Assembly (NCBI RefSeq): GCF_009695545.1
Contig: NZ_VUNS01000006.1
Coordinates: 62,001 to 126,000 of the forward strand
Length of the DNA stretch: 64,000 bases
Source of the DNA: Victivallis lenta
GTDB lineage: Bacteria; Verrucomicrobiota; Lentisphaeria; Victivallales; Victivallaceae
Direction of reading: 5' to 3'
This document shows positions 37,979 to 61,102 of this stretch, piece after piece (position 1 is the stretch's first letter; each line of letters starts with the position of its first letter). The notes under the pieces were generated by a model. The model did not search any database, was not told where the DNA came from, and saw nothing but the letters and a program-made list of their open reading frames with translations. A program made the translations under genes and the position numbers.

Positions 37979-38059
37979 TTCTGCGGCGGCCGGGTTCCGA
38001 AATCGGGAGCAGCTCTGCAACTCCGCCGGGATCGGGGGGATTCGAAAACGGGTTCGGCG

Positions 38060-38215
38060 TCAGGGGCGGAGGGGGAGCCGGTATGCCCTGCCGGGCATAT
38101 CGGACGCGAGAATCAGCAGAAGCCGTTCAAGTCCGTGTGCGAGCGCTTCGTCCGCTGGAATCGGTTCCGCCGGGAAATCGTCGAAGGAGAGAGGCGGCTC
38201 CAGAAGCCGTTTCCG
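38060..38215 (-). pseudogene. Decayed fragment of the 3' end of the RgpF-like gene
   Basis: A minus-strand frame of about 50 codons ends in TGA at 38062-38060 and encodes KRLLE, PLSFDDFP, EPIP and then AHGLERLLLILASDMPGRAY. The intact gene at 41311 ends the same way, with DVPGRAY, and the DNA match covers about 145 bp. There is no start codon or upstream part. It is a copy of the last 45 residues left by duplication or rearrangement. Confidence 0.75.
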
Positions 38216-38481
38216 GGCGGGCACGCCCGGCGTGCCCGCCTGTAACGCGGATATGTCAGGCTGCTGAGTGTTCGAGTTGCCGCGGGAATAGCAGGAGCGG
38301 AACCCCGAAAAAACTTTATTTGCGCTGAAGTTTCTTCGGAGTTCCGCTCCTGTTTGAATTCAATCACGCAGGACCTGCCGCTTACTGCCGCCTCCGTGCC
38401 GATCCGCCCGATGCGGGGAAGATGGTCTGGTCATACCCTCATCATGCTGCCGGGTCTGCTGAACGTATGCTTTGTCCGTGA
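38216..38481. other. Non-coding stretch with a long hairpin
   Basis: No gene is seen between the RgpF fragment and the symporter stop. The notable item is an inverted repeat at 38292-38352. Confidence 0.6.
38292..38352 (-). terminator. Long hairpin downstream of the symporter
   Basis: Two 25-nt arms beginning CAGGAGCGGAAC and ending GTTCCGCTCCTG enclose a ~11-nt loop. On the minus-strand RNA all positions pair, with two G-U pairs; on the plus strand these become mismatches. It lies 130 nt after the symporter stop. It lacks a final U tract, so it may be a 3' stabiliser or processing site instead of a simple terminator. Confidence 0.5.
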
Positions 38482-40880: not shown

Positions 40881-41310
40881 CGGTAGGCTTAAATAAATGC
40901 CATAAATTTCCCGAAGGACCTATAAAACTATTGATAATACATGATAGTTGATTATATAAAATCTCTTTGGAAAGTTTTTTTCTTATCTTCGAATCTTCTC
41001 GCATGGCATTGATCGGTGACGAATATCGGAGTAATGGATTGCAATTTTGCTTCGATGCGTTCGATGGCTGCCTATGTCAACGTGATCCGGCAGTTTTCAG
41101 GCGCCGGCTGTGCCGCTGATCTTCCTGCGCGGAGAGGCAGATCGCGGCAAAGTTGAAAATTTTGCCCTGAGCGGTCCCGGATGAACCTGGCTGTAAACGG
41201 AGTTTTCCCGACCTGCATACGGTGTGCTTTCATCATTCCAGCAGGCACGGGAGGTTCTTTCCGTCAGAGCGGGTTTCGCGTATGGCGGTGTGCGGTTCCG
41301 GATAGCGGGG
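40881..41310. other. AT-rich intergenic region without a gene
   Basis: The first ~120 bp are AT-rich and then base composition rises. A 67-codon minus-strand frame (40801-41004) overlaps the promoter and has no Shine-Dalgarno or recognised domain. I see no RNA gene or repeat here. Confidence 0.6.
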
Positions 41311-42552
41311 TCAGCGGACGGCGGTGAGCCGGTATGCCCTGCCGGGTACGTCGGACGCGAGAATCAGCAGAAGCCGTTCAAGTCCGTGTGCGGGCGTTCC
41401 GTCCGGCGGAATCGGCTCCTCCGGGAAATCGTCGAAGGAGAGCGGCAGCTCCAGAAGCCGTTTCAGGGCCTCCGAGCGCGCCCAGAACATGCTGCCGTGC
41501 GGAAAATCGACAACCGGAAATTGCCGGATATCCAGATCCGTGTACCGGTTGAGCAGCCGTTCCGCTTCATCGTAATTGCAGCTCCAGCCGGTCGCCGGGT
41601 CCGGCGTCACATCGGCGGGCGGCGCGGGATAAACGAACTTGCCGTCCCGGGAGAGCAGCTCCCGGATGCCTGCAACCCGTTCGGGGCTCCCGAGCAGAGA
41701 ATCAAGGGTGCTGCCGAGCCAGCCGGAGAGGCGCCGGTCGTGCGGACTCTTCTTGCTGTGGATATGGCAGATGAAATCGTATTCCAGCAGCCTTCGCCCG
41801 AACCGGACGATGAACGGGGCCAGGTCCCGGCCGCGGTTCGGAACCGTCTCCACCGCTGTCGGAAGGCCCGGAAACGCGGCGGCCAGCCGGGCCGCCGTCG
41901 TTTTCCGGACGGAGTCGGAACTGACCGACACGAACAGGTCGAAGCTTCCGGGAATATTCCTCAGCCTGCCGATGAAGCCGTCGAGCATCTCCGGGTAGAA
42001 CAAATGCAGATGCACCGCCGTGCGCCGGGCGGCCGTTTCCCGGTCCGGAACCGTATGCAGCTCCGTGACTCCGAGGCGCGCAAACGACTCGCGCCGCACC
42101 TCGCTGAGTTGTGCGGGCGGCAGCGCGATCCGGCCGAAGCCGGAGGCGTTTCCGCCGCTGCGGATGCAGTGCCAGAGCGGATTGATCGTTGTCTGCACGA
42201 TCTCCGGATGGGCGGCGAGGTAGCGGGCGGTATCGAAGAATATGCAGGGATTGCGCAGTTCCGCCGCGCCGCGCCGGACATAATGGGTAATCGGGTGGGT
42301 CGCCAGGCGGCCGAATTTGGAAATGACCGGGAGACGCTTTTGGCCGAGCCGGTACAGACGGCTGCGCCTGACCGGAAGGAACGCATCCGGGTTTTCATTC
42401 CAATACCAGAGCGGACAGAAAAGCTCGCGCTTTCTCAGGGCGCGGATGACGTAAAAATCGTACAGCAGCCGGGCGGCTTTCCCTCCGCCGCCCGCAAGAA
42501 TCCATGATTCCAGATTGCGTGTTTTCGAAGACGTCACTTGATCTTTCCGCAT
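41311..42552 (-). CDS. RgpF-like (rhamnan synthesis F) glycan protein
   Basis: 413 residues. One FDxxxYLxxHPEI-NPLWHCIRSGG repeat (residues ~105-140), common at the front of capsule glycosyltransferases, precedes an RgpF-type domain: HLHLFYPEMLDGFIGRLRNI, VPNRGRDLAPFIV, CHIHSKKSPHDRRLSGWLGS, and MFWARSEALKRLL near the end. RgpF proteins take part in rhamnose-rich polysaccharide building, though the precise reaction is unsettled. It overlaps the preceding GT gene by 19 bp and is the last gene of the wzm-wzt operon. Confidence 0.85.
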   Translation of the reverse strand: MRKDQVTSSKTRNLESWILAGGGGKAARLLYDFYVIRALRKRELFCPLWYWNENPDAFLPVRRSRLYRLGQKRLPVISKFGRLATHPITHYVRRGAAELRNPCIFFDTARYLAAHPEIVQTTINPLWHCIRSGGNASGFGRIALPPAQLSEVRRESFARLGVTELHTVPDRETAARRTAVHLHLFYPEMLDGFIGRLRNIPGSFDLFVSVSSDSVRKTTAARLAAAFPGLPTAVETVPNRGRDLAPFIVRFGRRLLEYDFICHIHSKKSPHDRRLSGWLGSTLDSLLGSPERVAGIRELLSRDGKFVYPAPPADVTPDPATGWSCNYDEAERLLNRYTDLDIRQFPVVDFPHGSMFWARSEALKRLLELPLSFDDFPEEPIPPDGTPAHGLERLLLILASDVPGRAYRLTAVR

Positions 42553-45500
42553 TGCTCCTGGGAAATCATGTGTTTTTCAAGTACCAGTTCCCGGGCATTC
42601 CGGGCGATCTGTTCCCGCTTTCCGCGGTCGCGGATCAGGTCCGCCAGGGCTGCATACCACGCTTCCGGATCGTCGCCGTCGACAACGACAGCCGTGACGC
42701 CGTTCTCGACGAGCTTGCCGTAAACGACTTTGCTGCACACCGTCGGCAGACCGCAGATGCTGTTTTCAAGGAACTTCAGGGGACTCTTGAAAGCGTTCAT
42801 CGGCTTCTGCGAAGAGAGGGGAGCCACTGCGATATTCATCCATTCCGACACGCTGCGCAGCCAGGAGATGAATGCGTAATATTCCGAATTCGGAACCGGC
42901 AGTGTAATCCACTCTTCACAGCCTGTTTTCTGGCGTGTTCCGCCGATCATGAAGAACTGAACCGGAAATTCCTTCTTCAGGCGGGCCACGACCGGATTGA
43001 TCAGCGCCAGGTCATCATCGTGCGTCCGCGAACCGAAATAGATCACATTGACTTCACGGCGTTTATTCTGGATAATCTCCAGCGTTTCGATATCCAGAGG
43101 GGCTTTGATCCCATCGATCCACGCCTGCCGGTTCAGCGCATTCGGCTTGACTGAAATATTCGAGGCATAAGGCGCGATCGCCTCCGCCAGCTCCGGTACC
43201 GAAACAACGACTCCCGCCGCATGCCGCATCAGCCGTTTCAGGACAGGCAAATACAGCACATGTTCCTGCGTCAGCAGCGGATTATCGTCAAGTTCAATAT
43301 AAAACGGCAGCTTCAGAAGGGCGCATTTCAGCAGAAAAGACGATACCAGTTCCTCAGGAATCGCGTCGCGGCAGATGACCAGCGCATCATACCGGTCGAA
43401 GGCGGTTCGATCCAATGCCAGTGCATTGAGCACATCGACTCTGGCTCCCGTTTCCTCGTATGCTTTGCGCCAGTCGAGCAGACGGACACAGCTGCTGGCA
43501 AAGAAACCGTTGCGGGAAGGACGTGGAATCAGCCCGAGACGCGGCGCGGTTTCAAGCAGTTCGCCGAACGTTTTTCCCGGTACCGGTTTCCCCGCATGAT
43601 CGGGCTGAAGCAGCCCGGAATAGATGTCCATGTACATGGAAGCCATCCGTTCGATGGTATTGTTCCTGCCGAAGCCGGACTGCCATTCGGCAATCGCCTC
43701 AAGCCGTTGCAGATAGCCCGGCTTGTCGGCTTTGATGTCCAAAAGCTGCCGATACAGAATCTGGGGATCACGGTCAAGCAGCCAGCCTCCGCGGCATTCC
43801 CGCTGCAGTCGTCGGCCGACCGCTCCAAGGTCGAATGCCGCCACGGGAAGGCCTGCGCTCCAGCTCTCCGTCAGCGTGTGGCACCAGGTTTCCGGCCAGA
43901 TTGAAAAAATAACGGAAATGACCGGATTGATACGGGCGACACGTGCGGCAAACTGATCCCGCTCGTATCCGCCGTGGATGATGATTGATTTTGCAAATCG
44001 TTTGGACCGGAGTTCATTGACGGCTTCGCCGAGAATATGGAACTCCAGGCGATTTTCCACATCAAGCTCCTTCAGCCGCAGGATGATGGCCGCACCTTTC
44101 TCCCGGGAGATGTTGCCGGGGACGAGGATACGGAGGCGCTCGCCGCTTTCCGGGAAACGGTCTTCCGGCTGAAGGAATTTTGTGAAGTTCCGGCCGTGCG
44201 GAATCACATGAAAATCTTCCGGCCGCCGGCTGATTTCGGAAAAGTTCTCGAGCAGCAGATCGCGGGCGAAGGACTCTGTCGTTACGAAGCGGTCGCAATA
44301 TGGGAACACCGCCGTGTTGAACGTGTTTTTCCAGCGTTTCGAAAATGCCTCGTTCAATTCGGGCAGGAAAGCCGCAGGCAGCTTGCCCAGACCGATGTTT
44401 GCCCGGTTGTTGGTGATTCCGTGCGGCCAGAAGGTTCCATCCCGGTCCACCAGCTTCACGCTGGGGCAAATGGTGTAAAAATCATGGAAGGAAAACACCA
44501 CCGGGATGGCGAGGCGCTTCGCCAGCGGAAACAGCCCGATGCTGTTGAAGCCGATGTGACGGACGTGAATCAGCTCAATTTTGTATTCGAGCAGGATCGA
44601 TTCGGCAATCCGGTCGTATTCGCCGGAGCGCAGCGAAAAGAAATTCACCGGGTTTTCCAGGCGGTACTCCTCCAGCAGCTTTTCCGAGCGCCGGCAGTCG
44701 AACAACTGCAGAGTGCGATCCTGGCAGAACAGGAGAAACGGTTCGTAGTGCTCCCGGATCGCCGACATCAGATCGCGGTTGGTCTGCGGCGTTCCGCCGG
44801 TACGGACACAGATGACGTAGAGCACCCGCGGCTTTGCCGTACGCCGGGCGTACATCCACTGTTCCAGCTTTGCCGCCTGCTCGCGGATCGGCTGGAATGC
44901 GCTTTCCAGCAGAGAACGGTTCAGCTGCGGAAGTTCCGGATAGCGGGAGTGAAGAATTTCCCGGGCTTTCTGGACCCGTTCTTCTTTTTGTGGACCGAAC
45001 GACTGGGCGTTGACGTGATAGACCAGAACGGCATCGGCGATGGAATGCGTCCAGCCGCGATAAAATGCCCGCATGCAGAAATCGTTCTCTTCACCGTAGC
45101 CGAGTCCGAACGTCTCGGCGTCGAACATTCCGACGTCGTCCAGAAGCGCACGTTTGATATACATGCAGAAACCGTGTCCATTATGGATTTCCGGGCCCCA
45201 GTTCCGCGCATGCTGGAAATACATCCGGGAAATCTGAGGCAGAGTCTGATGCGGCGGAAGCGGATTTTCTCCTTTGATCGGGACGGAAAAAGCGTTCGAA
45301 TTATTTGAAACCGCCGACACGGTTCCGATGGCATCAGAACGATAAGCCGCCAATTTCAGCAGCGTGCTCCAGCGGTGGGAAACAACCGTGTCGCTGTTGA
45401 GGATAATGACATCGCAGCCAGCGGCAAGTTCAAAACCGCGGTTGACGGTTCGGACAAAACCGAGATTGGTTTCATTCCGACAGGTTTCGAGCCGGGGCGC

Positions 45501-46301
45501 AAACCGTTCCTTCAGTTGTCCGAACAGCTCCCCGATACGCGGATCCGGGCTGCAGTCATCAATCAGGAGAAGCCTCACCTCTTTCGGAGTGTATTCCAGA
45601 AGAGAAGTCACGCAGTCCAGCAGAACGGAAAAACCGTTGTATACCGGAACGACCACGGCGATTTTCGGCTCTGCGGCAACTGCGGCCGAATGTGTGTAAT
45701 TCACTCCGGAGGGATGTTTCTCCTCCGGAATCGGCAGGCATACCGGCAGCTCGCTTTTCTTCTTCCGCATCAGGGGCTGCCGGGATTCGTACCGGCCGCG
45801 GGTAATGAAATGAAGCAGCGGATTCTGCCCGGAATCGCGGACATCATCATTATTCCGCAAATAGAATAAAACATCGAAATCCGGTGAAGGATTGCGTCCT
45901 TCCAGCCAGCCGTTCCGGCAGAAATGCACGATGGGCGAAAACAGGAACCTGCCTCTCAGATCCCTGTTGTTCTGCAGATAGAAAATCTCGTCGAACATTC
46001 CGCTGCGGCGGATGGTCTGAATTTCGCGCAGCAGGTGCAGCCCCCGGCGCGGGTGAAGGAGACCGCATTTTCCCACCGACAGCAACAGCCCGCCGAATCG
46101 CCCCAGACGGACAAAGAAGCTTTTTTCTCTGATTTGAAGCTGAAGATATTCTTGATGTTTTTGCAGAAAACGGAGCTTTTGTTCCATTTCTGCCGTATTC
46201 TGCCGCAAAGAGGCTGCATTCCGCACCAGCATTTCCCGCACAGCGGAAAACTGTTCCGATACGAATTGCTCCGTCAAGATACTTTCATCCGTTTTGTTCA
46301 T
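42534..46301 (-). CDS. Multidomain glycosyltransferase (GT2 plus two GT4-like domains)
   Basis: 1255 residues from ATG 46301 (ATGA overlap with the preceding stop). Order: a short coiled coil (~10-75), two FDxxYL-NPLxHF repeats (~125-190), a GT2 domain (VVVPVYNGFSVLLDCVTSLLE, LIDDCSPD, ILNSDTVV, ~220-440), a GT4-like domain (ILVPGNISREKGAAIIL, ETWCHTLTESWSAGLPVAAF, ~500-870), and a third GT4-like domain (VNVIYFGSRTHDDDLALINP, KFLENSICGLPTVC, ~920-1255). Such proteins can add two or three linkages of a repeat unit. It follows the coiled-coil methyltransferase and shows how the chain could be polymerised next to its ruler. Confidence 0.88.
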   Translation of the reverse strand: MNKTDESILTEQFVSEQFSAVREMLVRNAASLRQNTAEMEQKLRFLQKHQEYLQLQIREKSFFVRLGRFGGLLLSVGKCGLLHPRRGLHLLREIQTIRRSGMFDEIFYLQNNRDLRGRFLFSPIVHFCRNGWLEGRNPSPDFDVLFYLRNNDDVRDSGQNPLLHFITRGRYESRQPLMRKKKSELPVCLPIPEEKHPSGVNYTHSAAVAAEPKIAVVVPVYNGFSVLLDCVTSLLEYTPKEVRLLLIDDCSPDPRIGELFGQLKERFAPRLETCRNETNLGFVRTVNRGFELAAGCDVIILNSDTVVSHRWSTLLKLAAYRSDAIGTVSAVSNNSNAFSVPIKGENPLPPHQTLPQISRMYFQHARNWGPEIHNGHGFCMYIKRALLDDVGMFDAETFGLGYGEENDFCMRAFYRGWTHSIADAVLVYHVNAQSFGPQKEERVQKAREILHSRYPELPQLNRSLLESAFQPIREQAAKLEQWMYARRTAKPRVLYVICVRTGGTPQTNRDLMSAIREHYEPFLLFCQDRTLQLFDCRRSEKLLEEYRLENPVNFFSLRSGEYDRIAESILLEYKIELIHVRHIGFNSIGLFPLAKRLAIPVVFSFHDFYTICPSVKLVDRDGTFWPHGITNNRANIGLGKLPAAFLPELNEAFSKRWKNTFNTAVFPYCDRFVTTESFARDLLLENFSEISRRPEDFHVIPHGRNFTKFLQPEDRFPESGERLRILVPGNISREKGAAIILRLKELDVENRLEFHILGEAVNELRSKRFAKSIIIHGGYERDQFAARVARINPVISVIFSIWPETWCHTLTESWSAGLPVAAFDLGAVGRRLQRECRGGWLLDRDPQILYRQLLDIKADKPGYLQRLEAIAEWQSGFGRNNTIERMASMYMDIYSGLLQPDHAGKPVPGKTFGELLETAPRLGLIPRPSRNGFFASSCVRLLDWRKAYEETGARVDVLNALALDRTAFDRYDALVICRDAIPEELVSSFLLKCALLKLPFYIELDDNPLLTQEHVLYLPVLKRLMRHAAGVVVSVPELAEAIAPYASNISVKPNALNRQAWIDGIKAPLDIETLEIIQNKRREVNVIYFGSRTHDDDLALINPVVARLKKEFPVQFFMIGGTRQKTGCEEWITLPVPNSEYYAFISWLRSVSEWMNIAVAPLSSQKPMNAFKSPLKFLENSICGLPTVCSKVVYGKLVENGVTAVVVDGDDPEAWYAALADLIRDRGKREQIARNARELVLEKHMISQEQCGKIK

Positions 46302-48118
46302 AATGCTATCTGTTTTTTCTGTCGATTTCGGAATTTGCGCCAGACAATCCGCAGCTTTCTCGGGAAATATGTAATGCACTGGCCGGCCCGATAACTACGG
46401 GAGTTCCGGATTTGCATCAACTGCTCCGTCAAAAGCCGCAGCTCCACGCATTTGTCGTCAATGATCCGCCGATTCTGCGCCAGCCATCCGTCCCGTTTGG
46501 CAATTGCCGCCTGATGCCGCAGCAAAGCTTCATCCCGTTTCGCGATTACGGCCTTATGCTTCACGAGGGCGGCGTCCCGTTTATCAATTGCCGCCCTGTG
46601 CTTTTCCAGTGAAATGGATAATTCCTCAATACGTCGTTTCTGTTTTTCCAGTGCCTCATCGCGCCATATGACGGCTGTGCGGCATTTTTCGATCTCCATT
46701 TTTCCTGCCGCAATCTCGGCGTTCCGTTTGTCTATCACACTGTTGCGTTCTTCCAGCAAGCGGTGCATGCATTCCGTTTTTTGAACCAGCGCTTCTCGTT
46801 CGAGCTTCAGCTTCTCAAGCGATGCATCGCGGCGTGAGACGGTATCGCGGAGTGCCGCCAGCAGCTCCTTCTGCTGCCGGTATTCCGTTTCGCGCCGGTC
46901 GATCACACTCTTTTGTTCCGCCAGCAACTGCTGCAGGTGTTCCGTTTTGCGGACTGTCGTTTCACGTTCGAGCTTCAGCTTCTCAAGCGATGCATCGCGG
47001 CGTGAGACGGTATCGCGGAGTGCCGCCAGCAGCTCCTTCTGCTGCCGGTATTCCGTTTCGCGCCGGTCGATCACACTCTTTTGTTCCGCCAGCAGCTGCT
47101 GCAGGTGTTCCGTTTTGCGGACTGTCGTTTCACGTTCGAGTTTCAGTTTTTCAAGCGATGCATCGCGGCGTGCGACGGTATCGCGGAGTGCCGCCAGCAG
47201 CTCCTTCTGCCGTACGCATTCGGCACGCCATTTCTCCAGTGCCTGCTTCGTTTCGTTGAACTGAAGTAATGCCTGATCGCGGCGGACAATCGTTTCCCGA
47301 TGTTTTTTCAGCGCAGCCTGCAGCTCGCGTATCGTCTCCGCGCTTTTTTCACATTCTGCCTGGAGTTTTCCGGAAAACTCTTTCTGGACATCATACCGGA
47401 GCGTCTGCATCTGCGCCTGGAATTCCTGCGTTGGTCTCCCCAGGATTCCGGCCAGGAAGCGGGAAAGTTCCTCGTTCGAATTTTCCCGGATGCAAAGAAG
47501 GCTGTCCCGGTTCGGCGCGATCGTGGAATATTCAATATCCATGAATCGGTTTACAATTTCGCTTCTGCGGTCGCTCAGCACGGTTGAAGCGGGGTTCAGA
47601 TTTCCGACGAAACAGAGGCCCGAAGGACCGATGTTGAGATTGTATATCTTTAGATCCGGGCGGAACTCTTTCAGGCAGAGGACGAATTTATAAACATCGC
47701 CCGTCCAGAATCGTGTCTGCCGTTCGCGTTTTACCGATAATGCGTCTGCCGGAACCGTATCGTGGATCAGGACGATCGTGTGCGGCCCGGCCCAGCGCTC
47801 AACATGGATGAAATCATCCAGGACGGATTCAAACAGATGCATTCCGTCGATGAATGCAAGATCGATCACTCCATTGCCCAAAACATCTTCTTTTTTTCTG
47901 GCGGCAAAAAAATCATCGCTTTTTTCAGGAAAAACGGTTGTATTTGCCGTCAGCTCATGTCGGATTTCAGGTTCCGGATCGATGCCGATCGTTTGCGTTT
48001 CCGGTTCTGCCAGGCAGAGGGATTCGCCGTATTGCACGCCGATTTCGAGATAATGAGCCGGTCGAAGCAGCAGATGAAGCTCCCGCAGCAGATAGTAATA
48101 TTCCGGAATCGCCCGCAT
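46298..48118 (-). CDS. Methyltransferase with long coiled coil, WbdD-like chain terminator candidate
   Basis: 606 residues. The N-terminal ~190 residues form a CmcI/class I SAM methyltransferase-like domain (HYLEIGVQYGESLCLAE, IGIDPEPE, AFIDGMHLFESVLDD). From ~240 to 560 lies a continuous coiled coil with 56-residue tandem repeats (unit RQQKELLAALRDTVSRRDAS...) and then 14-residue repeats (KHRAAIDKRDAALV type). The basic, aromatic C-terminus (SRSYRAGQCITYFPRKLRIVWRKFR) could bind membrane. This plan parallels E. coli WbdD, where a methyltransferase/kinase caps the O-chain and a coiled coil sets its length; here no kinase is seen. It sits between wzt and the transferases. Confidence 0.75.
   Translation of the reverse strand: MRAIPEYYYLLRELHLLLRPAHYLEIGVQYGESLCLAEPETQTIGIDPEPEIRHELTANTTVFPEKSDDFFAARKKEDVLGNGVIDLAFIDGMHLFESVLDDFIHVERWAGPHTIVLIHDTVPADALSVKRERQTRFWTGDVYKFVLCLKEFRPDLKIYNLNIGPSGLCFVGNLNPASTVLSDRRSEIVNRFMDIEYSTIAPNRDSLLCIRENSNEELSRFLAGILGRPTQEFQAQMQTLRYDVQKEFSGKLQAECEKSAETIRELQAALKKHRETIVRRDQALLQFNETKQALEKWRAECVRQKELLAALRDTVARRDASLEKLKLERETTVRKTEHLQQLLAEQKSVIDRRETEYRQQKELLAALRDTVSRRDASLEKLKLERETTVRKTEHLQQLLAEQKSVIDRRETEYRQQKELLAALRDTVSRRDASLEKLKLEREALVQKTECMHRLLEERNSVIDKRNAEIAAGKMEIEKCRTAVIWRDEALEKQKRRIEELSISLEKHRAAIDKRDAALVKHKAVIAKRDEALLRHQAAIAKRDGWLAQNRRIIDDKCVELRLLTEQLMQIRNSRSYRAGQCITYFPRKLRIVWRKFRNRQKKQIAL
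46801..47212. repeat. 168-bp tandem repeats inside the coiled-coil gene
   Basis: Units at 46801-46968 and 46969-47136 differ at one position (46927, A versus G); a third, partial and slightly diverged unit covers 47137-47212. The period is 56 codons, so gain or loss keeps the frame. A more diverged unit is visible at about 46740-46800. Confidence 0.9.
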
Positions 48119-48121
48119 GGT

Positions 48122-49474
48122 TTACTTTTCCTCCATTCGTCCCAGTCTGGTCATTTTTATCTCATGCATGGGAATTCCGGCCAGACCGACCGCAACGGAA
48201 GAGGCATGAGATTCGAATAGAAGCGCCTCATACATCCACTCATGCTGAACATTTTCCTTCTGTGTTCCCTCGGCGGCGGAAAGCAGGACGGAATAGTGTC
48301 CTTTCGGCAACAGCGGCATGACAAATGTGAAATCCGCGGAAAACATTTCACCGGCCCTGATTGTCAGCGGATTATCCAGATAAGTGAGGCAGGTGTTGTC
48401 GCCGAACAATTTCTGGCCGAGCTTGTCGTTGACATAAAAACCGACAATCGGGGAGTGAATATCCTGCTTCGCCAGGCATTCTACGTGCAATTTCACGATT
48501 TCCCCGCCGACAATCCAATTTACCGGCTTATTCTTTTCGTCGGTGAAACAGACGTTTTTGATTTTGATCCCTCCGGCACCGAAGCTTCTGGAGTCCTCCT
48601 TGAAGGTGAATACCTCCAAATCATTGCGCAGATTCGTCCGGTTCAGGAAATCGGTTCTCATATCCCGCCATTTGGCCGGACCGCCCGGAACCGGCTTTGC
48701 CGCCGGCGCTTTCCGGGTCCCGTCGATTTTCTGATTTTCCGCATACAGCTCTTTCAGGTAAAGGTCCGCCACTTGCTTGGGTTCCCCGCTCGTGACCATT
48801 CGCCCCTTTTTCAGGTAGATGGCATGGGAGCACAGGCTTTTCACGGAAGAGATATTGTGGCTGACGAACAGTACAGTGTGGTCTTCCATGAATTTACGGA
48901 GATAGCGCATGCATTTTTGCTGAAAAGCCGTATCTCCGACCGACAGGGCTTCGTCGATAATGAGAATATCCGGGGCGGTCACGATCTGCACTGCGAACGC
49001 CAGGCGCATCCTCATGCCGCTGGAATAAGTTTTTACCGGCTGGTCGATAAAGTCGCCGATGTCGGCAAAGTCGATGATTTCGTCATACTTCGCCAGTATT
49101 TCCCGGCGTTTCAGGCCGAGAATCGTTCCATTGAGGAATACGTTTTCCCGGCCGGTGAATTCCGGATTGAATCCGCTGCCCAATTCCAGAAGCGCGCCGA
49201 TTCTTCCCCGGCGTTCGACTTCGCCGGTCGTGGGCTGAAGTGTGCCTGCGATGATCTGGAGCAGTGTGCTTTTGCCCGCCCCGTTCCGTCCGAGAATGCC
49301 GATGCACTCTCCGCGGCCGACCTCGAATGAGATGTCGCGCAGCGCCCAGAATTCCCGGAAAAAATTCCGGTGTCCCATGCAGAGCGTCTGATAGAGACGG
49401 TGGACCGGTTTCTGGTAGATCTCGTAACACTTCGATATGTGAGAAACCCGTAATACGGCTCCTTCAGATGACAT
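48122..49474 (-). CDS. wzt: O-antigen-type ABC transporter ATPase with C-terminal glycan-binding domain
   Basis: 450 residues from ATG 49474 (the longer frame lies in the permease gene). Walker A GRNGAGKST (62-70), signature SSGMR (~151-155), Walker B ILIIDEAL (~170-177). The C-terminal ~150 residues are a Wzt_C-type beta-sandwich (GIKIKNVCFTDEKNKPVNWI, then LTIRAGEMFSADFTFVMP), which in known systems binds the terminal modification of the finished chain. It pairs with the permease encoded just upstream; the genes overlap by 11 bp. Confidence 0.93.
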   Translation of the reverse strand: MSSEGAVLRVSHISKCYEIYQKPVHRLYQTLCMGHRNFFREFWALRDISFEVGRGECIGILGRNGAGKSTLLQIIAGTLQPTTGEVERRGRIGALLELGSGFNPEFTGRENVFLNGTILGLKRREILAKYDEIIDFADIGDFIDQPVKTYSSGMRMRLAFAVQIVTAPDILIIDEALSVGDTAFQQKCMRYLRKFMEDHTVLFVSHNISSVKSLCSHAIYLKKGRMVTSGEPKQVADLYLKELYAENQKIDGTRKAPAAKPVPGGPAKWRDMRTDFLNRTNLRNDLEVFTFKEDSRSFGAGGIKIKNVCFTDEKNKPVNWIVGGEIVKLHVECLAKQDIHSPIVGFYVNDKLGQKLFGDNTCLTYLDNPLTIRAGEMFSADFTFVMPLLPKGHYSVLLSAAEGTQKENVQHEWMYEALLFESHASSVAVGLAGIPMHEIKMTRLGRMEEK

Positions 49475-50309
49475 CGGCAAACCCCTTTTTGGTTTTGATA
49501 AACCAGACCAGCCCCAGGTGGGCACACAGAGCGCAGGCTGCGATCGTGGTCAGCATAATCGTCCAGTTTGGCGTCATGCCATACCAGAATACCTTGCGGG
49601 TTTCTTCAATAATATATGCCAGCGGATTGAAGCGGATGATGAAACGGAAGCCCGGCGGAACGGCATTGATCGGATAAAAAATCGGCGTAATGAAAAAAAG
49701 AACGCGGATGATTACAGCCACGCATTGCTGGATATCTCTGATATATACTCCGATTGACGCCATGAACAATCCTACTCCCAGCGACAGAAGTACAACTGCC
49801 AGAATGGGCAGCGGCAAAAGCAGCATTGTCCAGTAAACCGTCCCTTTTGCCAGCACGACGGCGATAAACAGCAGGACGAACCAGGCCAAGCCGAGCACAA
49901 GGCTGGAAAACACGCGGGCTATCGGCAGAATTTCCAGCGGAAAAACGACTTTTTTCACATAATTCTGTTGTTTGGTGATCTCTCCGCAGCATGTACCGAG
50001 ACTTTCACTGAAAATATTGAATGTGGCCAGGCCGCAGAGCATGATGATGGCGTAAGCGCTGCGCGAATTTTCTTCTCCGCCCCAGCGGGATTGGAAAATC
50101 ACGGTGAAGACAAACGTATACACGGCAAGCATCAGCAGCGGCAGAATGAAACTCCAGAGGATTCCGAAAAGAGATCCGCGGTATTTGGCGTGAATGTTGC
50201 GCCGGACCAGTTGCTCAAGCAGATCCCGGTTTTTCCAGATGATCCGGATACCCAGTGCAGGATCGAATAAAGGTTTTATTTTGCTCCAGAAAGATCTGTT
50301 CATTGCCAT
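49464..50309 (-). CDS. wzm: ABC-2 polysaccharide export permease
   Basis: 281 residues from ATG 50309; the alternative ATG 50330 lies in the loop of a hairpin. Six membrane segments with the ABC2 pattern: YRGSLFGILWSFILPLLMLAVYTFVFT, the NYVKKVVFPLEILPIARV coupling helix and IIRFNPLAYIIEETRKV. It moves the lipid-linked polymer to the periplasm together with Wzt. It starts the five-gene minus-strand operon and is preceded by a clear promoter. Confidence 0.9.
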   Translation of the reverse strand: MAMNRSFWSKIKPLFDPALGIRIIWKNRDLLEQLVRRNIHAKYRGSLFGILWSFILPLLMLAVYTFVFTVIFQSRWGGEENSRSAYAIIMLCGLATFNIFSESLGTCCGEITKQQNYVKKVVFPLEILPIARVFSSLVLGLAWFVLLFIAVVLAKGTVYWTMLLLPLPILAVVLLSLGVGLFMASIGVYIRDIQQCVAVIIRVLFFITPIFYPINAVPPGFRFIIRFNPLAYIIEETRKVFWYGMTPNWTIMLTTIAACALCAHLGLVWFIKTKKGFADVI

Positions 50310-50316
50310 ATTGTTC

Positions 50317-50344
50317 CGGCTTCGGCACATGTGGACCGAAGCCG
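50317..50344 (-). promoter_or_regulatory. Hairpin in the wzm leader
   Basis: CGGCTTCGG and CCGAAGCCG, 9-bp perfect arms with a 10-nt loop that holds the upstream ATG at 50330. It could block that start or affect ribosome loading on ATG 50309. Confidence 0.45.
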
Positions 50345-55699: not shown

Positions 55700-58600
55700 T
55701 TATGCCGGAAGAACGGCGAGGGAACCGCCGCTGCGTTTCAGTTCTTCGCTTTCGGACAGGTAAGCCGCCGCGGCCGGCGGGGCTTCGGTGTCCGCCGGCT
55801 GCCAGTGCAGCGAGAGCTGCCCGTTGTCGATGCCGAGTTTCCATTCGCGGTCCCGGAACGCGGTCCAGCTCGCCGCCCCGGCGAACAGGGTGTCGGACTC
55901 GGCGCTGTAACGGAGGGTGAAGCCGCCGTCGTCCGCGAAATTCAGCAGTTCCGGCGTCGCGTCCACGAGGAGGAGGCTGCCGCTGCCGGTGAACAGGGCG
56001 CCGTCTCCGAGGTCGATGATGCGGGCGGCCGAGGCTCCCGTGAAGTTCCAGCTGCCCGACAGCCGGGAGACCATGGCGGTCGACAGCTCCGAGGAATTCC
56101 GGCCGGAGAGGTTGAAGGTGTAGCTGTTGACCGCCGCATCCGCTTCCCGCTTGGTCAGCGTTACCGACGTGCCGCCGCTGAACTCGATCGCGTCGAAGTT
56201 CCGGACGGCGGCGTTGAAGTCGCCGGTGTAGTCCGTAAAGGCGAGCGTGCTGATTCCCGCGACGACGGCGGAGGCGTTTCCGCCGCTGCTGCGGCCGGTG
56301 CCGTAGAGATTGCCGTCGAAGGTCAGGTTCGCGCCGCTGCCGGTGAAGGTGACGCGGGCGCCGCCGGAGACGTCGGCGTTTGCGCCGTCGAGCGCGTATC
56401 CCCCCGCATAGACGGCGTCGAGGAAGGTCGTCCGGTCCTGCGACGTGTCGACCGTGATCGAAACGTCGCCGAGCACCTGCGCCGTGCTGCCGGATGAATT
56501 CGCGAAGCCGCCCCCGTGCAGCCGTTTGCGGAAAATCCCGCCGGAGATGGAGATGTTTGCGCCGCCGGCGTTGGCCGTGCCGCCTTTTTCGGCGCGGCCG
56601 CCGCCGAGGACATAGTTGAGGTCCGAGCCGCCGGAGATGTTGACCGAGCAGGTTCCGCCGACATAATCCTGCGCTCCCGCGCCGTTGGCGAAACCGCCGC
56701 CGAACAGCCAGCCGGTCGAGCCGGCCTGATGGGTGGCGCCGCTCACATTGATCGTGATGTCGTTGGTCACCCGCGAGACGAGCGCGGCGACCGACGAGTT
56801 GTAGCTGCCGCCGTGTACGAGTCCGAACAGCGAAGCGCCGGTGAGGTTCATCGTGATGCTGCCGGTGACGGTTGATCCGGTTCCGGCGGCGGTGACGGCC
56901 GCCTGTCCGCCCTTCGTGCTGTTCAGCGCTCCGGTATAGCCGTTCAGCGTGCCGCCGTAGATGTTCGGCCGGGCGGAGAAATCGACTCCGCTGCCGATGT
57001 TCAGGACGATGTCGCCGGTCACGCTGCCGATGCCGCCGCCGTAGAGGACGCTGGTGATGCCGCCGCCGGAGAGATCCAGCGAGATATTGCCGGTCACGTC
57101 TCCCTCCGCGCCGCCGCCGAACAGCTTCCAGACGCTGCCGGAGCGCATGGCGATCCCGATGTCGCCGTTCACATTGCCGCGGAGACCGCCGCCGTACAGG
57201 TAGTTGACGTTCCCGTCGCGGAATTCGAGGTTTACCGCTCCGGTCGAGGCGTTGTCGCCGCCGCCGAAGAGATTGTAGATGCGGGTTCCGGCTTCGGCTG
57301 TCAGATTGACCGTGCCGGTCATGGCGCGGTTGTCGCCGCCGCCGAACATGGTTCCGGCCTCGTGTTTCAGGACGAGCCAGACGTTTCCGGCGAAGTCTCC
57401 GGTTCCGGGGCCGCCGTGCAGGACCTTTCCGGCATACGAGGCGTCGCAGACCACGCTGACGTTGCCGTCGGCGATAAAGCCGCCGTGGTCGGCCAGCGAA
57501 CTTACGTCCGCTCCGGTGGAAAGCAGCGAAACGATGGTCGCGGAGCCCCAGTCGGCCGGGGGGACATATGCCGCCGAAACCGTCAGCACGAGTTCGTCTG
57601 CGGCATTGCGGGCGAGATCGTAATAGTTTCCGGCCGCATCGGCCAGTGTATTGTACCCGGTTCCGTTCCAGACGAAGTTTCCCGAAAGGAAGGAGGCGGC
57701 CGTGACCGTTCCGGTGAAGTCCGCCGCGTTCCCGGCGAGTTTGTAGGAGCCGAAAGCGGGCGTCGCTCCGGCGGCCAGCGTCAGGGACGCACCGGTAATC
57801 GCCGCGAGGTTGTCGATCATGACGGTGTCCGTGTCGGCGGCATAGCCGGAGACGTCGATGGAGAGGACTCCTCCGGCCGTCATGGTGACGGCGCCGAGCA
57901 CCTTCATGGTTCCGCCGGTCAGGAACACCGTGTTGAGCCGGGTGCGTTCCCCCATCATGATCGTGCCGCCCGCTTCGGCGGTGAGACCGGTCGCCGTGAC
58001 TGCGGACTGGACCATGATCTGGTCGAACCGGTTCTGCACCGCGGCTCCGACGGTCTGGCCGCTTTGGGCGGTCTTGACGAAACTGAGCGTCATATCCCGG
58101 TTTTTATCGCTGCAGATGCCGTAACCGTAGTCGAAGTCGATGTACAGAATCCGGTCGGTCAGCGCGACGCTCCCGCCGCCCCGGTTGATGGGCGCCTTGA
58201 GCGTCATGACCGGAATTTCCTGATTCAGAGTTCTGGCCGCCAGGCGGTAGACGCCCGCCGCCTGATTGTAGGAGGTCCGGATTTCATAACTTCCCCCGGT
58301 GATATAGCCGAGCCCCGTCAGCATCGGCTGCTGATACTGGGAATTCGGAGCGAGAGTGCGCAAATCAAAACTGATCACACCGTTCTCGGCGACGGTCGCG
58401 CCCGTTCCGGTGACGGTCATCCTGCCGGCGATCTCGGTTCGGCCGCTCAGAACCGTATTGCTGTAATAGATATTCATGATGCCGCCGGATTCGATGACGG
58501 TATCGGTTGCGGTCGTTACCGGAGAAGTGCCGGAAACGTATGAGTTGTCGAGGATCATCATGCCGCTGTTCCGGATGATTGTTCCCACGGCAGTACCGCC

Positions 58601-61102
58601 GGCCCTCACCGTCTGCTGGGTTCCGCGGCCGCTGAGGACAGTGCCGACGGCGGTTTGTCCCGATGAAACAAGCTGATAGGATTTCCCCCCACACAGATGC
58701 AGGTTGTAGCTGTTCGATGTCGTTTCATAGGAAAAGGCCGAACCATTGCTGGTTCCGGCGATCTGCGTGTTGAAATCGAGTCCCCATATTGCGCCGTTTT
58801 CCAGATTGACTCCGGTCATGGCTGCCCCGGAACCGGCCATGAACATGCCGCCCGAGGCGACTTCCGTTCCGTCTGCGATTCCTTGGAGATATTGATAACC
58901 GCCGGAAAGAATGCGGGTGTTGCTGACCGTGCCGCCGGAACTTATGAGCATGGTTCCGCCCGCGGCGATCTCGGTTCCGTCTGCGGTTCCGCCGGAGTAG
59001 ACGTTTACGACGCCGCCTTCCGTGATCCGGTTGCCTGAGCCGTGTTCGCCATTGCCGAAATAGTGGTTCATGGTGTCTCCGCCGCTGCCGATGACCAGAT
59101 CGCTGAAGCTGTCCCGCAGCGTGAAGACCAGCGTCGAATTCTGGTTTTTCAGCAGGTAAACCGATGACCCCTCGGAACCCGCATGCCGGAACACGGCGGT
59201 GTAGCCGCCCAATTGCCGTTCGTCCCAGACGAATGACTGCAGCTGCCGGGTTCCGAGATAGAGGTCGATCTGCCCGGTATAGCCGTCCGCGCCGTCCGCG
59301 ATCCGGAAGGAGCCGCCCGCCGCAATCATGCTTTCGGTGACGGTGATGCGAAGCCCGCCGGAGGTCGCGGCAGTGATGTTGCCGATCGAATTGATTATCG
59401 AAGAGGCCGCCGGGCTCCTGCCTTCCAGCTGGAGGTCGATTCTGCCGCCCGACTGCACGGTGACGGCTCCGTGGGCGGCCAGAAAGCCGGCGACCCGGAT
59501 TACGCCGCCGAGCTCCGCTCCGGACGCAAGCGAGAGAAGCGCATGGTTGCTGATGCTTCCGTCCCGGAGAAGCCCGCCCGACTGAATATTCAGGGAACCC
59601 TTGTTGAGCGTGGTGTTCGAAGCGATTCCGCCGTTCTCGACGACTTGCACTCCATGGTCGATGACCGTATTGACCGCGCTCCCGCCGGAGGAGACGATCT
59701 GCGTGCCGCCGGAGAGCCGGGTGTCGGATACGGCGATCCCGCTTGAGACGAACTGCGTGCCGCCGGAGAGGACTGCTCCGTTTTCCGCCGCCCCGGCGAG
59801 GATCTGGCTGCCGCCTCGCAGGATCGTCCCGGTGGCAACCGCTCCTTCGAGCAGCACCATGCTGCCGCCTTCGACGATGGTGTCGAACGCTCCGTTGCCG
59901 CTGCCGCTGATATTGCGGAGATTGAGGACTCCGTCCTGAAGAACCGTGTCGCGGAGTGCGGTCCGGCTCTCGATCAGCGCGGTGCCGCCGGAGATGGTCA
60001 TCCGATGGAAATCGGTCTGCTCGACATGGAAGATGCTGACGTTGCCGCCGAGCAGTTTCGTGTCGTACAGCGTTCCGGCGCCGATGGTTCCGGTGCCGCC
60101 GGAGTGGATGGTCAGGTTATGGATTTCGGCATTGCCGGTTTCGACTCTTCCGCCCGATACGGTAACGCCGTCCGCAATGCAGCCGGTCCGGAACCAGACA
60201 TAGCCGCTGTGAAGCGTCATATCTTGTACGGTGCCGAAAATCTGGCCGCTGCCGTCGTGGATGACGGCGCCTGAGATCGCTCCGCCGTATGCGGACAGAA
60301 ATCCGCCGGAAACGATGGTGCCGTATGCGGTCCCGCCGGAGGCGGCGCATTGACTGCCGCCGCTCTGCACAAGAGTGCCTGAGGCCACTCCGCCGGACTG
60401 GATGTATTCAAAGCCGCGATAACCGACAACCGTGTTCGATGCGGTTCCTCCTGAGACGTTCTGAGTGGCGGTTTCGCTGTCGAAGAAGCCGCCGGAGAGT
60501 ATGGTGTTCTGCGCAGTTCCGCCGATTCCCACGACGATCGTGCCGCCGGATTCGACCCGGTTGCCGTGGCCGGTCACGCCGTCCGGAATGGTCAGCGTCG
60601 CGCCGCTCAGGACGGTCTGGTTGTCGTATTCGGAGTTGTCGAGGGCGTAATCGAAGAGGGTGCCGTTCGTCTCGGCGTGGGCGTCGCCGACCAGGTGGCC
60701 GGTTTCGTGGCCGATCGCGTCGAAAAGCTCGTCATCGCTGCTCGTGCCGTCGAGGAGCACGAACGCGTTGTCGTTCCGGTTGCGGTTGCCGGTGTCGACG
60801 GTTTCGGAGAGCCCGGTGAAGTTGCCGAACGGAGTGAACGCATCCGTTTTTCCGACATGGATCGTCGAATAGGCGTCCAGCTCCGGGCGGTTTGTGACGA
60901 AACGGATTCCGCGCGCGGAGAATGCGGAATTCAGCCGTTTGACCAGACGGTCGATCCGTCCGGCGGAGAGCCCGGAACTTTCGATGCTGATGCCGTCGAG
61001 CGAAAGAAGTTCGCCGCGGTAGGAGAGATTGTCGCCGCCGTTGAACTCAAGATAGATGAGCTGCTCGGACGACAGAGGACCGCTTCCTGGTGATTCGTTC
61101 AT
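55700..61102 (-). CDS. Metzincin-like protease fused to AIDA-type repeats
   Basis: 1800 residues. The N-terminal ~170 residues start LIYLEFNGGDNLSYRGELLSL and contain HETGHLVGDAH (His132, Glu133, His136, His142), which matches the HExxHxxGxxH zinc site of metzincin proteases. From ~190 to ~1050 come AIDA-like repeats (SGGTASNTVV, ISSGGTVSNTRILSGG). The remainder is Gly-rich beta-helix-like (LFGGGDN, YGGGLRGNVNGDIGI, GGGFAN). I see no signal peptide and no C-terminal autotransporter barrel, so the export route is unknown. It is likely a surface protein. Start ATG 61102 follows GGGA; a TATAAT lies at 61173-61178. Confidence 0.75.
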   Translation of the reverse strand: MNESPGSGPLSSEQLIYLEFNGGDNLSYRGELLSLDGISIESSGLSAGRIDRLVKRLNSAFSARGIRFVTNRPELDAYSTIHVGKTDAFTPFGNFTGLSETVDTGNRNRNDNAFVLLDGTSSDDELFDAIGHETGHLVGDAHAETNGTLFDYALDNSEYDNQTVLSGATLTIPDGVTGHGNRVESGGTIVVGIGGTAQNTILSGGFFDSETATQNVSGGTASNTVVGYRGFEYIQSGGVASGTLVQSGGSQCAASGGTAYGTIVSGGFLSAYGGAISGAVIHDGSGQIFGTVQDMTLHSGYVWFRTGCIADGVTVSGGRVETGNAEIHNLTIHSGGTGTIGAGTLYDTKLLGGNVSIFHVEQTDFHRMTISGGTALIESRTALRDTVLQDGVLNLRNISGSGNGAFDTIVEGGSMVLLEGAVATGTILRGGSQILAGAAENGAVLSGGTQFVSSGIAVSDTRLSGGTQIVSSGGSAVNTVIDHGVQVVENGGIASNTTLNKGSLNIQSGGLLRDGSISNHALLSLASGAELGGVIRVAGFLAAHGAVTVQSGGRIDLQLEGRSPAASSIINSIGNITAATSGGLRITVTESMIAAGGSFRIADGADGYTGQIDLYLGTRQLQSFVWDERQLGGYTAVFRHAGSEGSSVYLLKNQNSTLVFTLRDSFSDLVIGSGGDTMNHYFGNGEHGSGNRITEGGVVNVYSGGTADGTEIAAGGTMLISSGGTVSNTRILSGGYQYLQGIADGTEVASGGMFMAGSGAAMTGVNLENGAIWGLDFNTQIAGTSNGSAFSYETTSNSYNLHLCGGKSYQLVSSGQTAVGTVLSGRGTQQTVRAGGTAVGTIIRNSGMMILDNSYVSGTSPVTTATDTVIESGGIMNIYYSNTVLSGRTEIAGRMTVTGTGATVAENGVISFDLRTLAPNSQYQQPMLTGLGYITGGSYEIRTSYNQAAGVYRLAARTLNQEIPVMTLKAPINRGGGSVALTDRILYIDFDYGYGICSDKNRDMTLSFVKTAQSGQTVGAAVQNRFDQIMVQSAVTATGLTAEAGGTIMMGERTRLNTVFLTGGTMKVLGAVTMTAGGVLSIDVSGYAADTDTVMIDNLAAITGASLTLAAGATPAFGSYKLAGNAADFTGTVTAASFLSGNFVWNGTGYNTLADAAGNYYDLARNAADELVLTVSAAYVPPADWGSATIVSLLSTGADVSSLADHGGFIADGNVSVVCDASYAGKVLHGGPGTGDFAGNVWLVLKHEAGTMFGGGDNRAMTGTVNLTAEAGTRIYNLFGGGDNASTGAVNLEFRDGNVNYLYGGGLRGNVNGDIGIAMRSGSVWKLFGGGAEGDVTGNISLDLSGGGITSVLYGGGIGSVTGDIVLNIGSGVDFSARPNIYGGTLNGYTGALNSTKGGQAAVTAAGTGSTVTGSITMNLTGASLFGLVHGGSYNSSVAALVSRVTNDITINVSGATHQAGSTGWLFGGGFANGAGAQDYVGGTCSVNISGGSDLNYVLGGGRAEKGGTANAGGANISISGGIFRKRLHGGGFANSSGSTAQVLGDVSITVDTSQDRTTFLDAVYAGGYALDGANADVSGGARVTFTGSGANLTFDGNLYGTGRSSGGNASAVVAGISTLAFTDYTGDFNAAVRNFDAIEFSGGTSVTLTKREADAAVNSYTFNLSGRNSSELSTAMVSRLSGSWNFTGASAARIIDLGDGALFTGSGSLLLVDATPELLNFADDGGFTLRYSAESDTLFAGAASWTAFRDREWKLGIDNGQLSLHWQPADTEAPPAAAAYLSESEELKRSGGSLAVLPA

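Follow-up and report, generated by a model that had tools for sequence, protein, structure and literature searches.

The accepted account of chain-length control in ABC-exported O-polysaccharides is a coiled-coil ruler, demonstrated with engineered coils. According to PMC11231755 and PMC5082667, the coil carries the terminator at its distal tip and keeps it apart from the polymerase, and coil length determines glycan length. The modal chain length of E. coli O9a shifts when the coil is truncated or lengthened by insertion (Hagelueken 2015, as cited in PMC5082667). Capping by methylation is described for several systems: WbdD of serotype O8 is 'a simple methyltransferase' that adds methyl only (PMC3482155), the E. 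coli O101/O162 MT, composed of a methyltransferase and a coil, is required for the end methyl according to an excerpt of PMC13168486, and WsaE caps by 2-O-methylation (PMC2943079). We found no description of a natural change of ruler length in the literature searched, and tandem duplication in coils of Wzt-linked O-antigen terminators did not appear among the literature matches listed.

Here we analyse a 64-kb stretch of Victivallis lenta DNA (the window), taken from a 5.5-Mb draft assembly of 78 contigs, which contains a methyltransferase-coiled coil (MT/coil) gene next to wzm and wzt (Table 1). We conclude that its product is, with good probability, a chain terminator that adds a methyl cap and uses a coiled coil as its ruler, acting on an ABC-transporter-dependent surface polysaccharide, and that the rod has recently grown by one unit. 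The window holds the product of one length-changing event plus its crossover interval, and a survey of related loci provides many independent events. What is new is the chimeric middle unit and the recurrence of in-frame duplications in wzt-linked coils.

Table 1. Features of the locus (window positions; all on the minus strand)
Feature	Position	Strand	Length	Basis and remarks
RgpF-like protein (Rhamnan synthesis protein F, C-terminal half)	41311..42552	-		PF05045 E 1e-41
GT2-GT4-GT4 multidomain glycosyltransferase, proposed polymerase	42534..46301	-		Pfam
Methyltransferase-coiled coil gene, proposed chain terminator and ruler	46298..48118	-	606 aa	ORF, Pfam, AF2
SAM methyltransferase N-domain, residues 1-215, Methyltransf_24, COMT-like fold	47474..48118	-		Pfam, AF2, fold match
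Coiled coil, residues 230-585	46364..47431	-		AF2 helices, period 3.50
Repeat unit 1	47043..47210	-	168 bp	TRF and unit alignment
Repeat unit 2, chimera	46875..47042	-		nt 1-78 = unit 3; nt 79-168 = unit 1 save one base
Repeat unit 3	46707..46874	-		nt 1-78 = unit 2; rest = older diverged copy
Basic C-terminus past coil, SRSYRAGQCITYFPRKLRIVWRKFRNRQKK	46301..46399	-		Read from sequence; proposed membrane/polymerase contact
wzt, ABC ATPase and Wzt_C carbohydrate-binding domain	48122..49525	-		PF14524 E 8e-33, PF00005 E 2e-25; likely true start near 49474
wzm, ABC-2 permease	49464..50330	-		PF01061 E 4e-22

Gene order and domain plan of the locus

The open reading frame of the MT/coil gene is real and lies where the initial annotation had placed it, between wzt, which is 7 bp off, and the polymerising transferases, of which the GT2-GT4-GT4 gene shares a 4-bp ATGA overlap with it. 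With wzm and wzt upstream and the GT2-GT4-GT4 gene and then the RgpF-like gene downstream, the order equals wzm-wzt-wbdD-wbdA in E. coli HS (O9). Both the transporter-terminator-polymerase order and the Wzt_C transporter are shared with the WbdD systems of E. coli O9/O9a and O8 (K. pneumoniae O3, O5). Like WbdD, the protein consists of an N-terminal methyltransferase, a long coil and a basic segment of the SRSWR/SRSYR type; this basic C-terminus, also proposed at the outset, carries an SRSYR motif and is similar to the segment SRSWRMTKGYRYL... past the WbdD coil. In the AF2 model, helices at residues 230-319, 336-462 and 474-571 form a near-continuous rod from 230 to 571, after which a short basic helix follows. 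Hydrophobic residues recur along the coil with a period of exactly 3.50 residues (peak power 2.33, compared with a maximum of 1.80 in 500 shuffles). The coil had been put at about 300 residues, a figure that we correct to nearer 350; by the same measure the WbdD coil has about 150, and its methyltransferase is of another family.

The absence of a kinase had been taken to make the protein different from WbdD. This holds for O9a WbdD, in which the kinase sits between the methyltransferase and the coil: a Pfam search found no kinase family in the MT/coil protein, and WbdD of E. coli HS has one. It does not hold for O8 WbdD, which is likewise devoid of a kinase, nor for the O101/O162 MT and WsaE, all of which cap by methyl alone; judged by these descriptions, terminators that do without a kinase are nothing out of the ordinary. 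The O101/O162 MT resembles the window protein, by description rather than by sequence comparison, in its N-terminal MTase, C-terminal coil, missing kinase and proposed ruler, and its O-methyl end modification matches the one predicted here, whereas the excerpt of PMC13168486 reports no repeat. ORF6 of K. pneumoniae O7 (PMC11231755), likewise encoded in a wzm-wzt locus, links its N-terminal methyltransferase by a central coil to GT modules at the C-terminus, but has kinase-like and CBM domains, and the window keeps MT/coil and GTs in separate, overlapping genes. WsaE of Geobacillus stearothermophilus (PMC2943079) shares the N-terminal methyltransferase, the GT domains and a gene beside wzm-wzt with overlapping ends; it differs in serving an S-layer glycan in a Gram-positive host.

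The fused form known from O7 ORF6 also occurs in a congener recorded as Victivallis sp. (L003/L112; the L003 and G002 loci are identical where compared). Here wzm-wzt is followed by a single 2135-aa protein, MT24-coil-RgpF-GT2-GT4, which also holds a CBM-like insert and has a coil of 234 residues. Congener and window are 50% identical in the methyltransferase and 61% in Wzt_C. Since parts that are fused in the congener are split in the window species, we regard them as one machine. A CBM-like domain ahead of the coil is alike in otherwise different terminators (L112 9926-16330, about aa 265-390; L163 137-4240, about aa 710-830).

Elsewhere in the window, a 164-bp direct repeat at 38055-38218 and 41306-41469 (88% identical) is perhaps a dispersed element, and a protein of 1800 aa with AIDA-type stalk repeats (55700-61102, minus strand) is probably a surface adhesin. 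Wzy_C proteins are present in the window genome and do not identify the glycan acceptor, which may be LPS or another carrier.

The methyltransferase domain and its proposed role in capping

The N-terminal methyltransferase of the initial annotation was recovered as a Pfam match of residues 24-121 to PF13578, Methyltransf_24 (42.9 bits, cut-off 26.3; E 1e-10). The N-domain is compact to about residue 215 in the AF2 model (pLDDT about 97), and fold comparison aligned it with COMT chains (Z 14.9, rmsd 2.3, 154 residues). D91, H94 and D120 are invariant across 46 relatives; by motif spacing, we take them to correspond to COMT D141, K144 and D169 (metal ligands and base), and such COMT-like residues would fit O-methylation of a sugar hydroxyl. 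A single-sequence search of solved structures with the MT/coil protein yielded no relatives, and the top matches of a profile search, which were weak (E 0.05), were CmcI and, ranking first, 6g7d, a methyltransferase-domain protein that is presumably the mycobacterial mannoside 1-O-methyltransferase MeT1. That function of MeT1 is described in PMC9883506. Assignment of the domain to the WbdD type (Methyltransf_31/25/11) was rejected, as it is a Methyltransf_24 and hhalign against WbdD gave a probability of 22%; the absence of WbdD among the 50 fold matches listed for the domain is uninformative either way. A methyl ether cap is the likeliest product of the domain.

By analogy with homologous systems, the N-domain would O-methylate the growing glycan at its free (non-reducing) end. 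This methylation would stop polymerisation, and the methylated end would let the Wzt_C domain recognise the chain for export. The coil of ∼350 residues may space the N-domain ∼50 nm (0.15 nm per residue) from the basic C-terminus, the part predicted to bind the membrane and the GT2/GT4/GT4 polymerase, such that only chains spanning the rod would be capped. Of the features expected of a chain terminator, the locus shows linkage to wzm and to a wzt with Wzt_C, linkage to GTs (or fusion with them in L003/L112) and, from the domain plan, an enzyme domain at the distal end of a long coil, which would act on chain ends.

Alternatively, the methyl groups could be added to internal residues of the repeat unit, the coil being a mere GT scaffold that measures nothing by its length. 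Among Methyltransf_24 relatives in the database, most are neither wzt-linked nor long-coiled, so that the family has other jobs too, and GT proteins beside wzt can bear coils, as does the GT2-coil protein of L262. However, the place directly after a Wzt with Wzt_C, the enzyme-coil-basic-end plan and the GT fusion of the congener are those of known terminators, and other wzt loci put MT11, FkbM, sulfotransferase or GT99 domains on the coil, which fits a shared capping role; we therefore consider internal decoration improbable. Gene order, domain plan, fold and comparative data together give good support to the reading as terminator and ruler, which the initial annotation had put forward.

A chimeric 168-bp unit in the coil

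In the gene, TRF detected an array of 168 bp × 2.5 with 97% matches; its score of 794 far exceeds those of the other three arrays in the window. The duplicated tract extends over gene nt 909-1322 (window 46797-47210), and comparing gene nt 909-1154 with the sequence at offset 168 gives 241 matches in 246 positions. Direct alignment agreed with the earlier count of 167/168 identical positions: the two complete units (gene nt 987-1154 and 1155-1322) are one base apart. Because a third, partly diverged half-unit is also present, the tract amounts to 2.46 copies and not two.

Divided as in Table 1, unit 1 differs from units 2 and 3 at four sites over the first 78 nt, whereas over the last 90 nt unit 2 differs from unit 1 by one base and unit 3 at 36. 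Unit 2 thus joins unit-3-type to unit-1-type sequence, which is what an unequal crossover between two older repeats 168 bp apart would produce. An unequal homologous crossover between the older 78-bp stretches (∼95% identical, 168 bp apart) would have added one 168-bp unit, with the out-of-register exchange presumably located in the interval from unit position 70 to 79. The ancestral protein was one unit shorter, at 550 residues, and the gained unit contributes 56 residues, or ∼8 nm of rod. As 56 residues are eight heptads, the register of the coil is kept, and the best heptad phase is indeed constant through all three units. Repeat anatomy, chimeric unit 2 and unbroken register thus bear out the growth of the ruler by in-frame duplication that had been suspected from the two near-identical units. 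Since a reciprocal crossover would shorten the rod, the locus would possess a built-in route to alter ruler length.

A near-identical repeat in a 78-contig draft could also be an artefact of assembly. This is very improbable, considering that five distinguishing bases lie in an ordered chimeric pattern across the units, that short-read assemblers tend to collapse repeats rather than create them, and that arrays of a similar kind are found in ten other genomes, one of which is a single-contig assembly (G250, L161).

Recurrence and length of duplicated coils

We surveyed about 150 Wzt_C loci from the phylum of the window species, and 21 further stretches served as control. A long-coil ORF counted as wzt-linked if it shared the strand of wzt and lay no more than 2.5 kb from it, a rule fixed when some of the data had already been inspected. 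Strong internal duplications were found in 10/21 wzt-linked long-coil ORFs, 1/40 other long-coil ORFs (p = 3.5e-5) and 8/1159 non-coil ORFs, with a home-made coil detector and duplication score and with p-values that treat ORFs as independent. The lone exception among the controls, L137, encodes MT11-coil-GT2-GT4 and starts 100 bp from its Wzt_C domain; when it is moved to the wzt-linked group, the counts become 11/22 and 0/39 (p = 1.7e-6), or 7/18 and 0/39 (p = 1.2e-4) if four orthologues from g15, one genus of the same family, are dropped. All repeat offsets in the survey are multiples of three bases, and 7/11 repeat units have a length of whole heptads, where 1/7 would be expected (p = 2e-4). 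The enzyme domains attached to the duplicated coils are Methyltransf_11, Methyltransf_23, FkbM, sulfotransferase or GT99, indicating that the pattern goes with the ruler rather than with any single enzyme. Ruler growth by repeat recombination seems frequent in related bacteria.

Such duplications might nevertheless be neutral, if repetitive coil codons recombine and length is weakly constrained, in which case the 168-bp unit would leave glycan length unaffected. Units 1 and 2 differ by a single amino acid at the protein level, and coils tolerate whole-heptad insertions. On the other hand, none of the 39 other long-coil ORFs, random genomic controls included, carries such a duplication, so that coiled-coil sequence alone is no explanation, and the O9a coil insertions and truncations quoted in the excerpt of PMC5082667 alter modal chain length. 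Neutrality thus appears rather unlikely to us.

With one genome per species compared, variation between species is strong. The coils of the g15 orthologues L134, L137 and L232 measure 371, 270 and 616 residues, and every one of them bears duplications of its own, while their MT parts are 54-64% and their GT parts 63-70% identical; the fourth, L228, is cut by a contig end. With its conserved enzyme ends, this set is a natural experiment, for which the ruler model predicts glycan lengths ordered as the coils, 270, 371, 616. E. coli wbdD, in contrast to the window gene, has no internal duplication in its coil and measures 2127 bp in 48/48 full-length matches listed (210 genomes, down to 90% identity). 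Partial wbdD matches were rejected as length variants, the two examined being genes truncated next to IS1. In these (L277 5295-6266, L278 5288-6182), wbdD is reduced at IS1 to its last 180-270 bp, and wzm and wzt are missing from the locus. The constant length of wbdD in E. coli means that rulers need not vary within a species; they can stay constant there yet change much between species. That one strain might produce several discrete glycan lengths, recombination between 168-bp units adding or removing 8-nm steps, and that repeat-driven rulers might be general in the phylum, we regard as a doubtful extension.

The survey also revealed terminator-like proteins of other kinds. Proteins with a sulfotransferase (PF13469) and a coil lie near Wzt_C transporters in L161 (10268-15106, plus strand), L243 (9322-14526, plus) and L261 (6014-8050, minus), in two cases with a GT fusion; they are candidate sulfate-capping terminators, a cap type not found in the literature searched. 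In L108 (6204-9671, minus strand), a GT99-GT4-coil protein adjoins wzt, GT99 being what we take to be the WbbB Kdo-transferase family, and its coil contains a 117-bp repeat × 2.7.
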